DNA of 11,999 bases from Paraclostridium ghonii (lineage in GTDB: Bacteria > Bacillota > Clostridia > Peptostreptococcales > Peptostreptococcaceae): assembly GCF_023653455.1 (NCBI RefSeq), contig NZ_JAKEDR010000102.1, positions 1-11,999 of the forward strand. Direction: 5' to 3'. Positions 3,849 through 11,999 of this stretch are shown one piece after another. Both the position numbers and the translations under genes were made by a program. Below the pieces are notes generated by a model, which was not told where the DNA came from, made no database searches, and saw nothing but the letters and a program-made list of their open reading frames with translations. Each line of letters opens with the position of its first letter. The stretch's first letter is position 1.

Positions 3849-4055
3849 ATGTTAGATCCAAACATAGATTATAACAAAGAAATCTACAGAGTAGAAACAG
3901 AGCATGCAATTATCGAGATAATCTCTCCGGAAATTGTTTTAGGCAGACAACAGACAGATGAAGAAGTGCAAGAGATACTAGAAGATATAGCTAAAGTTAA
4001 TTACAAGATAGCAATTAGACTACATGAAGAAGGTAAATTAGCTACTGATAAATAG
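3849..4055 (+). CDS. Hypothetical small phage protein, 68 aa
   Basis: A clear GGGAGG Shine-Dalgarno sequence precedes the ATG. The product is acidic, with a predicted N-terminal beta segment (YRVETEHAIIEIISPEIVLG) and a C-terminal helix (TDEEVQEILEDIAKVNYKIA). I recognise no catalytic motif or named family. It lies in the early operon between the antirepressor and the recombination genes, and similar short proteins of unknown function are usual there. Confidence 0.75.
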   Translation: MLDPNIDYNKEIYRVETEHAIIEIISPEIVLGRQQTDEEVQEILEDIAKVNYKIAIRLHEEGKLATDK

Positions 4056-7328: not shown

Positions 7329-7868
7329 ATGAAGTATGCTAACACATGTGATTTTGAATTAAGAGATAATTATATAGCTTTGTTAGCTTGTATATTAAAT
7401 CCAAAATTAAGTATAGGAAAAGCTATAAAATATATAACTTTGGAAGACGCAAAAGATAAACAGGGCGGGGAGTATAGACCACCAAGCAAACCAAGAAAGA
7501 AGCATGAATATAGAGCCAAAGTAATAGATGAACTTGAAAATAAAGAATATGAGTTTGATAACTTAGGAGATTGCTGCGAGTTTTTAAATATGAGAAGAGC
7601 AGACATAACCACTTATATAAAACGTAATAGAAGATTTAAGAAGAGATATAGAATAATAGGTTTAGATCCTATAAGAAGTGTTATTAGTAAACCTCTAATA
7701 GTTGAAGATACTTTAAATAATAAAACTATGGAGTTTGAAAGTGTAAATAAGGCATGTAAATATTTAGAAACTACTAGAGACGTTATCAATAAAGTTATAG
7801 CAACTAATAGATTGTTTAGAAAAAGATACAAAATTAAATATAAAGAGGGGAATGAGAGTAATGATTAA
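7329..7868 (+). CDS. Phage protein with two NUMOD1-like DNA-binding repeats
   Basis: This 179-aa basic protein contains two related segments: KVIDELENKEYEFDNLGDCC followed by EFLNMRRADITTYIKRNRRF, and PLIVEDTLNNKTMEFESVNK followed by ACKYLETTRDVINKVIATNR. Each ends with a basic (F)(K/R)KRY(R/K)I pattern. Such units resemble the NUMOD1-type helix-turn-helix modules found on homing endonucleases and phage regulators. No HNH or GIY-YIG nuclease domain is visible, so it looks like a DNA-binding protein only, possibly a relic of a homing endonuclease. AAGGGGG precedes the ATG. Placed after the replication initiator in the early operon. Confidence 0.75.
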   Translation: MKYANTCDFELRDNYIALLACILNPKLSIGKAIKYITLEDAKDKQGGEYRPPSKPRKKHEYRAKVIDELENKEYEFDNLGDCCEFLNMRRADITTYIKRNRRFKKRYRIIGLDPIRSVISKPLIVEDTLNNKTMEFESVNKACKYLETTRDVINKVIATNRLFRKRYKIKYKEGNESND

Positions 7869-10761: not shown

Positions 10762-11253
10762 ATGGAAAATATAGAAAAAGAAGATTTATTTTCAAAAGTT
10801 GAGGGAATGTTTTATAACTATGAACAGTTAAAAAAAGAAATTACATATGTAGATGAAGAGATAGAGTTTATAAAGCAAGATTATGCAGGTTGTGGAGCTA
10901 TAGAGTATTCAGAAAGAGTACAAACAAGTACTAATATAAACTCAGCGGTAGAAAGGGAGTTAATACAAAAACAAAAGCAAATAGAATACTTAAAAAAAGA
11001 AAAACTTAAAAAAGAAATGAGCTTAAGAAGAATTGAAAGAGCAAAATCTAATTTTAATATGGAAGAAGAGCAAATGTTTAAGATTAGATATTTATTAAAG
11101 ATTAAAGACTGGAAAGTTTATGCAGATAAAATGAATGTAGGCAAAGATACTTATTATTCAATAAGAGATAATATGATATATAAATCTATGTCTACAATGT
11201 ATCCTTTTTATAACTTTAAGAATACAGCAATGGAAAATATTATAAATTTCTAA
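10762..11253 (+). CDS. Putative phage late-gene transcription regulator (ArpU/sigma-like)
   Basis: This 163-aa protein is the last gene of the early block. Its N-terminal two thirds are charged and helical (VDEEIEFIKQDYAGCGAIEY, then ERELIQKQKQIEYLKKEKLK). The C-terminal part, residues about 100-145, looks like a sigma-region-4-type helix-turn-helix (MFKIRYLLKIKDWKVYADKM, then NVGKDTYYSIRDNM). Proteins of this size and layout at the early-late boundary in Firmicutes phages are ArpU- or RinA-like activators of packaging and lysis genes. Position just after RusA and just before a large structured leader supports that. AGAGGGGGAG precedes the ATG. Family assignment is by pattern and context. Confidence 0.65.
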   Translation: MENIEKEDLFSKVEGMFYNYEQLKKEITYVDEEIEFIKQDYAGCGAIEYSERVQTSTNINSAVERELIQKQKQIEYLKKEKLKKEMSLRRIERAKSNFNMEEEQMFKIRYLLKIKDWKVYADKMNVGKDTYYSIRDNMIYKSMSTMYPFYNFKNTAMENIINF

Positions 11254-11277
11254 AAAGGCAGAAAAGTATCAGAAAAA

Positions 11278-11379
11278 CTTCGGAATAAGTACCGAAGCAC
11301 AAGGGGTTGAAAGGTGATATTATATTATCATAGAGAACTTAGGACAACCTAAATTCTCACTCCCTAAAAACCCCTTTTT
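11278..11379 (+). ncRNA. Structured RNA module A: hairpin plus three-way-junction terminator
   Basis: CTTCGG (11278-11283) pairs with CCGAAG (11292-11297). Next, AAGGGGTT (11301-11308) pairs with AACCCCTT (11369-11376), enclosing two hairpins: TGATA/TATCA (11315-11319 with 11326-11330), and a 10-bp stem with one mismatch (GAGAA 11333-11337, TTAGG 11339-11343, CCTAA 11348-11352, TTCTC 11354-11358) with an ACAA loop. The closing stem runs into TTTTT, so the fold behaves as a terminator on the plus strand. It probably ends the early operon and is far more elaborate than a simple hairpin. Confidence 0.6.
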
Positions 11380-11381
11380 AT

Positions 11382-11570
11382 AAAAAATAGCCAGGTTTAC
11401 CCACCTGGCAGCGTGCAAGTAAGAGTATTAGTTGGTGCAACTCCAACAACTTGCTAAAATTGGACTACGAAAAGAGAAACTCTGTAGAGGTATGGAGTAT
11501 AAACTAAAAAACTTTTACGTACACTCGTTTATAACTACTGAAAAGTCAGGAACTTACACCTGGCTTTTTT
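11382..11570 (+). ncRNA. Structured RNA module B: about 180-nt folded RNA with two alternative closing helices
   Basis: Helices visible in order: GCCAGGT (11390-11396) with ACCTGGC (11403-11409); GCAAGT/ACTTGC (11415-11420 with 11449-11454), enclosing GTTGG/CCAAC (11431-11435 with 11443-11447); CTAC-AGAG/CTCT-GTAG (11465-11476 with 11480-11487, GAAA bulge); and AGT-ATAAAC/GTTTAT-A-ACT (11496-11504 with 11527-11536, one bulged A). A second ACCTGGC at 11558-11564 can also pair with GCCAGGT at 11390, closing the whole domain. No ORF fits. No known riboswitch class, tRNA, or intron core was recognised. Candidates are a late-operon leader, an antitermination element, a packaging RNA or a small regulatory RNA. 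Confidence 0.6.
11541..11570 (+). terminator. Intrinsic terminator at the end of RNA module B
   Basis: AAAAGTCAGG (11541-11550) pairs with CCTGGCTTTT (11559-11568), with one G-U pair and an 8-nt loop, and the T run extends to 11570. Its 3' arm is the second ACCTGGC, which can pair elsewhere. ACTTTT (11511-11516) is complementary to its 5' edge. Formation may therefore be conditional. Confidence 0.75.
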
Positions 11571-11611
11571 ATTGTGTATAAAATTCTAATTAGGAAAAAA
11601 ATGGAAAATTG

Positions 11612-11620
11612 TGATATAAT
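11612..11620 (+). promoter_or_regulatory. Extended -10 promoter of the PIN-like gene
   Basis: TGATATAAT (11612-11620) is a perfect TGnTATAAT extended -10, with no good -35. It lies after the module B terminator and 40 bp before the PIN-like gene start, so that gene probably has its own transcript. Confidence 0.6.
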
Positions 11621-11659
11621 AAAATTATTTGAGGTATTAGATATAATATGGAGGAAAAA

Positions 11660-11999
11660 ATGAAAAATACTTTTTTTGAGCATAATATGCATAGGTTGGG
11701 ATATGTAGACAAGATTAAAAACGATTCTATTATAATTTTAGATGCAAATGCACTACTAAATTTATATAGATATAATGAAGAGAATAGATCTAAATTTTTA
11801 GAAATATTAAAACAAGTTCAAAATAGATTATTTTTAACTAATCAATCTGTTGAAGAATTTTATAGAAATAGATTAAATATATTAAAAGATAAGTCTCGAT
11901 TTAAGGATAGTCTAAAAAAATCAATAAATAATGAGATGGGAAGTATTAGAGATAATATAGTAAATGGAAATTTTAAAGGTGATAACATATCATCTTGCC
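11660..11999 (+). CDS. PIN-like domain nuclease (PIN_8/DUF4935-type), truncated by window end
   Basis: The first 113 residues show the start of a PIN-like RNase domain: SIIILDANALLNLYRYNEEN (residues 23-42, metal-binding D28 with N30), then the helix-strand RLFLTNQSVEEFYRNRLNIL (56-75), with the conserved acidic pair E65/E66 before FxRNR. This matches the PIN_8 group, large PIN-like proteins found in mobile and defence contexts. The later acidic residues are beyond the window. GGAGG (11650-11654) precedes ATG 11660; the in-frame ATG at 11648 overlaps that site. It lies where phages usually start their packaging genes and has its own promoter, so it looks like inserted cargo, possibly antiviral or toxic. 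Confidence 0.7.
   Translation, partial: MKNTFFEHNMHRLGYVDKIKNDSIIILDANALLNLYRYNEENRSKFLEILKQVQNRLFLTNQSVEEFYRNRLNILKDKSRFKDSLKKSINNEMGSIRDNIVNGNFKGDNISSC

Follow-up and report, generated by a model that had tools for sequence, protein, structure and literature searches.

A structured RNA between the control gene and the late genes of a Paraclostridium prophage, predicted to carry a stripped-down tRNA copy

Introduction

The late leader of phage lambda (pR′–tR′, 6S RNA) is a short transcript of the late promoter that ends at a terminator before the late genes, and lambda tR′/6S and HK022 put serve as models for RNA-based antitermination. Model substrates of RNase P, in turn, include RNAs of the acceptor/T-arm type. 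Among the structured RNAs of phages and prophages, GOLLD possesses linkers that sometimes hold phage tRNAs, and ROOL is often located near tRNA genes (PMC12286853, in excerpt); a phage RNA with a tRNA inside therefore has precedent. RCd22/abiF RNA of C. difficile phages is a non-coding RNA with a terminator that precedes a gene and has also been reported in phiC2; it bears the Rfam RF03085 motif and acts as an antitoxin of AbiF (PMC12373285, in excerpt).

Here, we describe an element from a window of 11,999 nucleotides of Paraclostridium ghonii, by which we mean the whole stretch of DNA that was analyzed. The prophage in this window is predicted to encode a structured RNA that follows a control gene, precedes the late genes, and bears a stripped-down copy of a tRNA. 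An earlier note on the same DNA had proposed a structured RNA at 11382–11570 that switches between two mutually exclusive pairings.

Results

Organization of the element

The element and its two flanking genes comprise the following features.

10762–11253, + strand: gene for a RinA/DUF1492-like transcriptional regulator, directly upstream of the element (PHROG 36, E 2.5e-17; Pfam DUF1492, E 1.3e-4)
11278–11297, + strand: inverted repeat CTTCGG-N8-CCGAAG, judged by its sequence to be a possible regulator site
11315–11323, + strand: extended −10-like TGATATTAT, a putative promoter found by eye, with similar words in the corresponding position of homologues
11333–11358, + strand: leader hairpin GAGAA..TTCTC, present in the minimum-energy fold
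11390–11409, + strand: hairpin P1, GCCAGGT-TTACCC-ACCTGGC, from pair probability and a homologous hairpin
11410–11415, + strand: junction AGCGU/G, an RNase P-like 5′ flank by flank counts (U−1 and G+1; G at −4 in the window)
11415–11454, + strand: tRNA-like minihelix without D and anticodon arms, from comparative covariation and the tRNA in the homologous slot
11415–11420 with 11449–11454, + strand: acceptor of the minihelix
11431–11435 with 11443–11447, + strand: T-stem of the minihelix, with T-loop UGCAACU at 11436–11442; a linker replaces the D and anticodon arms
11479–11498, + strand: hairpin P3, ACUCUGUA-GAGG-UAUGGAGU, from the consensus fold of homologues
11499–11506, + strand: conserved AUAAACUA following P3
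11540–11575, + strand: intrinsic terminator GAAAAGTCAGG..CCTGGCTTTTT with T tail (terminator scan; pair probability 0.90–0.99)
11648–11999, + strand: PIN-domain gene, cut by the end of the window (Pfam PIN_8, E 5.2e-21)

The stretch 11382–11575 folds at −51.8 kcal/mol, compared with −37.9 ± 3.6 kcal/mol in 200 shuffles, none of which was as stable (z −3.82), and for 11258–11575 the z-score is −5.65. With its conservation and its terminator, the stretch at 11382–11570 is a structured RNA, as the earlier note had held. The terminator hairpin (11540–11569) has 11 pairs and is one of three terminator-like sites in 11200–11660, where shuffles yield a mean of 0.3. The core is followed by a hairpin that ends in a T-run in 40 of 42 rows, the window included, and the remaining two loci end too early. 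Upstream of the putative promoter, a minus-strand match of the terminator scan covers the inverted repeat at 11278–11297. Transcription of the element would start near 11330–11333; a consensus promoter scan did not report TGATATTAT at 11315–11323.

The pair probability of P1 is ∼0.99 for six of its seven pairs and 0.88 for the innermost, and the homologous hairpin shows double changes in three of eight pairs across 18 Paraclostridium-type copies, that is, copies gathered by the conserved 3′ core pattern. P3 is paired in 100% of cells in the consensus fold of 18 homologues, with seven of eight pairs invariant and one varying between G-U, G-C, and A-U; in the single-sequence fold of the window, its probability is only 0.02. 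The octamer AUAAACUA is near-invariant in alignments A2 and A3, both of which were gathered by a pattern that itself includes part of AUAAACUA.

Database searches

No match above gathering was found in the window with Rfam 15, in agreement with the earlier note, which knew of no class that the RNA matches. When E values up to 5 were admitted, the sole match in the window was a 17.7-bit CRISPR-repeat outside the element. The homologous loci scanned contain no Rfam family other than tRNA in some of them, plus chance matches below gathering. A tRNA cloverleaf with an anticodon arm is absent from the window according to both RF00005 and ARAGORN, and ARAGORN reported no tmRNA in the window or in 10 loci. 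ARAGORN did, however, find a tRNA in the homologous slot of 17 of 92 fetched loci, a set that includes repeated copies and many loci that BLAST matched by chance and that lack the element. Fifteen of these tRNAs were named Glu, Lys, Pro, or Ser, and two have no assigned anticodon. Rfam placed a tRNA of 34–60 bits in the slot of 5 of 10 loci scanned.

A covariance model (R1) built from 18 copies, none of them armless like that of the window, matched the window at 45.4 bits. This match proves little alone, because ordinary tRNA genes score as high: of 30 loci fetched with R1, 25 coincide with an ARAGORN tRNA and lack the core motif, and four possess this motif. As most fetched matches are ordinary tRNA genes, we did not count the R1 survey (46 of 71 genomes).

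Fold and covariation of the tRNA-like module

On comparative evidence, the segment 11415–11454 is the predicted acceptor-stem/T-arm minihelix of a tRNA that lacks D and anticodon arms. The earlier note had drawn the first of its inner hairpins at this position and had missed the likeness to tRNA. In alignment A4 (19 armless modules from several genera, i.e. 19 of 20 listed modules with L168 left out), compensatory changes are present in 10 of 11 pairs, the counted pairs having been predicted on A4 itself. Paired cells amount to 98.6% compared with 85.7% after shuffling, and none of 500 shuffles reached the alignment on any of five measures; a slide by one column lowers pairing to 40–49%. The double changes come from one sequence each in six acceptor pairs and from one to nine sequences in four T-stem pairs. 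An acceptor with a T-stem and T-loop is thus recovered comparatively as 6 + 5 pairs. The T-loop UGCAACU differs from UUCRANY at position 55, and its combination with an armless module is found in the window and six other modules.

The whole layout, written by hand as a 43-pair structure for the 18 Paraclostridium-type copies, is paired in 92.3% of cells, and 10 of its pairs show double changes. It was reached by none of 500 shuffles on four measures and by 42 of 500 on pair types. RNAalifold had paired the 5′ strand of the acceptor with a later strand in A3, a solution that we replaced by the tRNA-like structure.

Single-sequence folding gives a different picture for the full RNA of the window, where the free fold (−51.8 kcal/mol) is favored over the fold with minihelix and P3 enforced (−46.9 kcal/mol). 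In this setting, the minihelix has a probability of 0.01 or less (0.00 for the acceptor), and an extended hairpin that disrupts it is preferred. Folded alone, the segment 11390–11460 forms the acceptor with a pair probability of 0.71–0.82. Six other armless copies form the minihelix with probabilities of 0.04–0.73 when folded singly, and the acceptor helix is at or near zero in 7 of 18 full copies.

We also considered an open reading frame that starts from an RUG before the minihelix (GTG..TAA over the minihelix in the window) and rejected it on inspection. No Shine–Dalgarno sequence is visible by eye, and the 3′ arm of P1 lies directly upstream of the candidate GTG start. The frame closes after 3–5 codons in L053, L163, L204, and full-tRNA copies, but continues across the module in L005, L224, and L164.

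Relatives of the element

As judged from sequence comparison, related prophages fill the same slot, which follows a RinA-like regulator gene and precedes HNH/terminase genes, in different ways: with a full tRNA, with an armless minihelix, with a tRNA-like fold of larger size, or with two copies. Among the named carriers are Paraclostridium tenue, a Terrisporobacter phage, and phiC2 and phiCD27 of Clostridioides difficile; the P. tenue record and the same-genus genome G003 carry identical elements. Armless minihelices like that of the window occur in L005, L053, L070, L204, L224, and as the second copy of C. difficile phages. In L006, L069, and L077, the tRNA-like fold has an insert of ∼60 nt. 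Two tRNA-like copies are found in C. difficile phages and in the Terrisporobacter phage.

BLAST searches within the genus and family gave additional copies. One of them lies in the genome of the window itself (G000:C146:18582–18894, L008); it apparently belongs to another prophage and carries a degenerate full tRNA in the slot. With the window element as query, BLAST found no match in phages and one plasmid. The Paraclostridium sordellii phage-plasmid pRSJ16_1 (L013:3000–3112) possesses a part of the element, P3 and the terminator, without P1 and the tRNA-like module. P3 and the terminator may be the minimal unit, since P3 closely follows the putative promoter in this locus. The element of a same-family genome as query led to phiC2, phiCD27, phiCD418, CD1801, and four C. 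difficile plasmid records. The conserved 3′ core pattern gave 53 matches among viral contigs and a single match among genome contigs, and the C. difficile pattern matched 119 viral-contig stretches.

The first copy of the C. difficile phages includes a covarying arm, which reads GCAU-GAGG-AUGC in 7 of 17 distinct copies, GCGU-GAGG-ACGC in 5, and G-U variants of these in 5. The T-stem of the same copies is GUUAG/CUAAC in 10, GUAAG/CUUAC in 4, a G-to-A variant in 1, and mismatched in 2. The GAGG (or GCGG) loop of this arm (L161–L173) is shared with the Paraclostridium-type P3 (11487–11490 in the window).

When 1.07 Mb of phage DNA was scanned on both strands for an acceptor plus T-arm, 32 of the 36 matches fell into such elements, 27 just before the core motif and 5 in the phiC2, phiCD27, and Terrisporobacter elements; the other four lie elsewhere, and two of these are the same sequence. 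Of 80 regions that follow RinA-like genes of the same family, 18 scored, compared with 0 of 400 mononucleotide shuffles; the 80 regions are mostly the strongest among the matches listed, with some already collected left out, and L218 and L234 of the 18 were judged spurious by eye. In other families of the order, a tRNA-like match was found in 0 of 40 regions downstream of RinA-like genes, picked from among the matches listed.

Gene neighborhood

The nearest upstream gene is RinA-like (PHROG 36) in the window, L037, L013, L093, L050, and L072. In phiC2, it is annotated as similar to a sigma factor; in phiCD27, orf72 (“transcriptional regulator”) and orf73 are annotated upstream, and in L010 a 227-amino acid ORF lies between the regulator gene and the element. 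On the downstream side, the place of the PIN gene is taken by other genes in other phages. L013 and L043 continue with integrase, HNH, and terminase genes, whereas terminase genes are what follows in L039, L045, and L072; variable genes intervene. The Terrisporobacter phage is annotated with a like downstream gene order.

In this phage, TPELB_ph1, annotated small hypothetical ORFs overlap the tRNA-like copies (L093:3694–3804 and 3916–4014) and are probably not genes. In L007, a large palindrome with GTACG and ATTTATGTATG words (∼1744–1797) just upstream of the putative promoter is possibly a regulator site; a chance miRNA model of the Rfam scan matched both of its strands. Other phages have ACTTTAACTACA repeats where L007 has the palindrome.

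Two further genes of the window were noted. A large serine recombinase (157–1947, − strand) unites HTH_3 (XRE-type, residues 7–62), Resolvase (92–244), and Recombinase (270–373) domains in one ORF, and its HTH part looks like a fusion because the best plasmid relative aligns only from residue 88. The protein encoded by 7329–7868 (+ strand) shows a weak I-HmuI/NUMOD-like match (E 1.1e-6) and is perhaps derived from a homing endonuclease.

The 5′ flank and 3′ end of the module

U−1 is known to be optimal for cleavage by RNase P, and N−4 is contacted in the Bacillus subtilis and Escherichia coli enzymes, with C−4 best in E. coli (PMC9433436, in excerpt). Among 24 hand-chosen lineages, with the first copy of phiC2 (C−1) left out, U−1 is present in 23, G+1 in 22, and A−4 in 21. 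The corresponding numbers are 177, 215, and 181 in 262 ordinary tRNA genes from same-family loci, all fetched with R1. For U−1, the difference between lineages and tRNA genes has a Fisher p of 0.002, where the lineages are related and not independent. The A−4/U−1/G+1 flank of the lineages resembles that of host tRNA genes; the window has U−1 and G+1, but G−4.

We also counted distinct copies by motif, whereby G+1 is fixed by the motif itself for two groups. U−1 was invariant in the 30 full Paraclostridium-type copies and in the 41 second copies from C. difficile; among the 35 first copies, 29 have U−1 and the other six, phiC2 among them, have C−1. A−4 was found in 29 of 30, 6 of 41, and 20 of 35, respectively, and the position is otherwise mostly C (34 of the 41 second copies).

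At the 3′ end, the window has a UAAAA tail in place of RCCA, and CCA is absent from all 49 distinct C. difficile second copies; NCCA is present in many Paraclostridium-type copies. A 24-nt minihelix can serve as an RNase P substrate (PMC6614837, in excerpt). RNase P is inhibited by leader stem-loops and by pairing of N−1/N−2 with RCCA (PMC9433436, in excerpt), and a stable leader stem-loop and pairing of G−2U−1 with the 3′ end are listed as anti-determinants (PMC10731613 and PMC9433436, both in excerpt). Both are partly present here, since P1 ends 5 nt before the putative cut and some Paraclostridium-type copies can form extra pairs, so that binding without cutting is also conceivable.

Alternative pairings of P1 and the terminator

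All words on which the earlier note built its switch are in place, namely GCCAGGT at 11390–11396, ACCTGGC at 11403–11409 and again at 11558–11564, ACTTTT at 11511, and AAAAGT at 11541, the 5′ edge of the terminator, and the alternative pairings between them can be written down. However, only the local one is predicted to form. GCCAGGT pairs with the adjacent ACCTGGC at a probability of ∼0.99, and with the terminator arm at ∼0.007; forcing the long-range helix costs 4 kcal/mol in the window, and the ensemble probability of ACTTTT with AAAAGT is 0.0000. By the refuting condition that the earlier note had set, compensatory changes likewise support the local hairpin (in the three pairs noted above), whereas the long-range helix shows no sign of maintenance.

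For 20 representatives, which are related to each other and do not include the C. difficile elements, we calculated the duplex between the 5′ arm of P1 and the 3′ arm of the terminator. The native mean of −6.99 kcal/mol compares with −6.21 kcal/mol for arms swapped between phages, and 1054 of 20,000 permutations reach the native mean. Duplexes of −10 kcal/mol or stronger are restricted to six representatives (the window, L008, L037, L038, L039, and L077), and native values are near zero in L007 (−0.5), L010 (−0.9), L050 (−1.3), and L005 (−3.2 kcal/mol). We thus rejected a riboswitch or two-state leader in which both mutually exclusive helices are kept. What persists of the earlier proposal is a real, conserved, terminator-ended RNA without an Rfam class.

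Discussion

The element occupies a conserved position, keeps a conserved layout, and covaries in its helices. We tentatively read it as a late-leader non-coding RNA that carries a recognition module for host RNase P. Such an RNA would be made at the start of the prophage late region from the putative promoter, run through P1, the tRNA-like module, and P3, and end at its own intrinsic terminator. The module would retain what host tRNA-processing enzymes read, an acceptor stem stacked on a T-arm and a tRNA-like 5′ flank, and its D and anticodon arms would be free to be lost or exchanged; this retention of the parts read by such enzymes, with the anticodon parts dropped, is what points to RNase P. 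Most likely, RNase P would recognize the module and cut before G11415, parting the P1 leader from a 3′ RNA that starts in a tRNA-like fold and ends in the terminator. Late genes or the host may be affected. Counting against an RNase P module are the full-RNA fold, which disfavors the minihelix, the scores that ordinary tRNA genes reach with R1, the partly present anti-determinants, the C−1 of some first copies and the C−4 of most second copies in C. difficile phages, the missing CCA in the window, and the absence of the module from L013.

It is somewhat unlikely that RNA and terminator instead gate late-gene transcription in cis, by attenuation or as an RNA-based antiterminator, with the module as a stable fold or sensor. 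Such a leader would suit the location of the element, which has a RinA-like regulator gene on one side, packaging genes on the other, and a terminator immediately behind its core. If the C. difficile phage JD032 carries the element, its gene classes would also fit, with sigma-like genes assigned to the early class and HNH, integrase, and terminase genes to the middle class (PMC7205517, in excerpt). However, the genes after the terminator vary (the PIN gene, small ORFs, HNH, and others) while the RNA stays, and the representatives do not preserve an alternative pairing of P1 with the terminator.

An RNA that acts in trans late in infection we consider unlikely. Its tRNA-like part might titrate a host factor (RNase P, the CCA enzyme, EF-Tu, or a tRNA-directed defence), or its C-rich P1 loops might pair with host Shine–Dalgarno sequences. 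Consistent with this are the anti-determinants, which would favor binding over cutting, the two tRNA-like copies in the C. difficile and Terrisporobacter phages, and the CCC or CCCC in P1 loops of several lineages, although the P1 loops of L037, L038, and L010 have no C-runs. Since the anticodon loop is missing in the window, an anticodon decoy is ruled out there.

That the modules are decaying remnants of phage tRNA genes, caught downstream of a late promoter and functionless as RNA, seems decidedly improbable. Degenerate or absent anticodon arms in many copies, the lack of CCA and the broken minihelix in the single-sequence fold of the window, and the loss of the module from L013 would all fit decay. 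Nevertheless, compensatory changes preserve the acceptor and T-stems of the armless versions, conservation extends to P3 and the terminator in the surroundings of the module, and the module recurs at one position in several genera. Finally, a switch of GCCAGGT between the adjacent ACCTGGC and the terminator arm is barely credible as a model. The window can form the duplex (−13.6 kcal/mol), and the duplex is strong in a few representatives, but it has next to no probability in the ensemble, is matched by swapped arms, and nearly vanishes in several homologues.

Extending the RNase P reading to its relatives, it is possible, and we suggest it with reserve, that a class of late-leader RNAs is common to Peptostreptococcaceae phages, many C. 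difficile prophages among them, and that the tRNA tops of these RNAs dock RNase P, with cutting or holding as the outcome. Late expression, or the release of a stable RNA, would thereby be coupled to the tRNA maturation of the host. If so, members of this class would carry one or two tRNA tops, whole or as a bare minihelix, and the armless copies would be natural minimal RNase P substrates. With RNase P as the partner, phage late expression and tRNA processing would be directly linked. The element adds a conserved phage RNA family; the records of phiC2 and phiCD27 have no RNA annotation on that stretch. It also provides, within one genomic slot, a natural series of forms that runs from full tRNA down to bare minihelix and lets one ask which part of a tRNA the virus needs and which host enzyme reads it.

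Comparison with known systems

Like the late leader of lambda, the element would be a short, terminator-ended late transcript; unlike it, the element contains tRNA-like modules. With the minihelix model substrates of RNase P, it shares the stack of acceptor and T-arm, U−1, and G+1, but the module of the window is natural, is situated in a phage leader close behind P1, and has no 3′ CCA. Rfam reported neither GOLLD, ROOL, nor RF03085, the motif of RCd22/abiF RNA, in the window or in 19 other loci scanned. ROOL is far longer than the window element. Many GOLLD members likewise exceed 800 nt, whereas the element would measure ∼240 nt, and its tRNA-like module is a regular, often armless part of the layout.

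Our literature search, with supplements outside its scope, returned no description of a window-type RNA; transcript tables of C. difficile may contain it. The element is not named in the excerpts of two studies of C. difficile regulatory RNAs and start sites (PMC3649979 and PMC7438776), and the excerpted account of GOLLD and ROOL (PMC12286853) describes no reduction of a tRNA to its top half.
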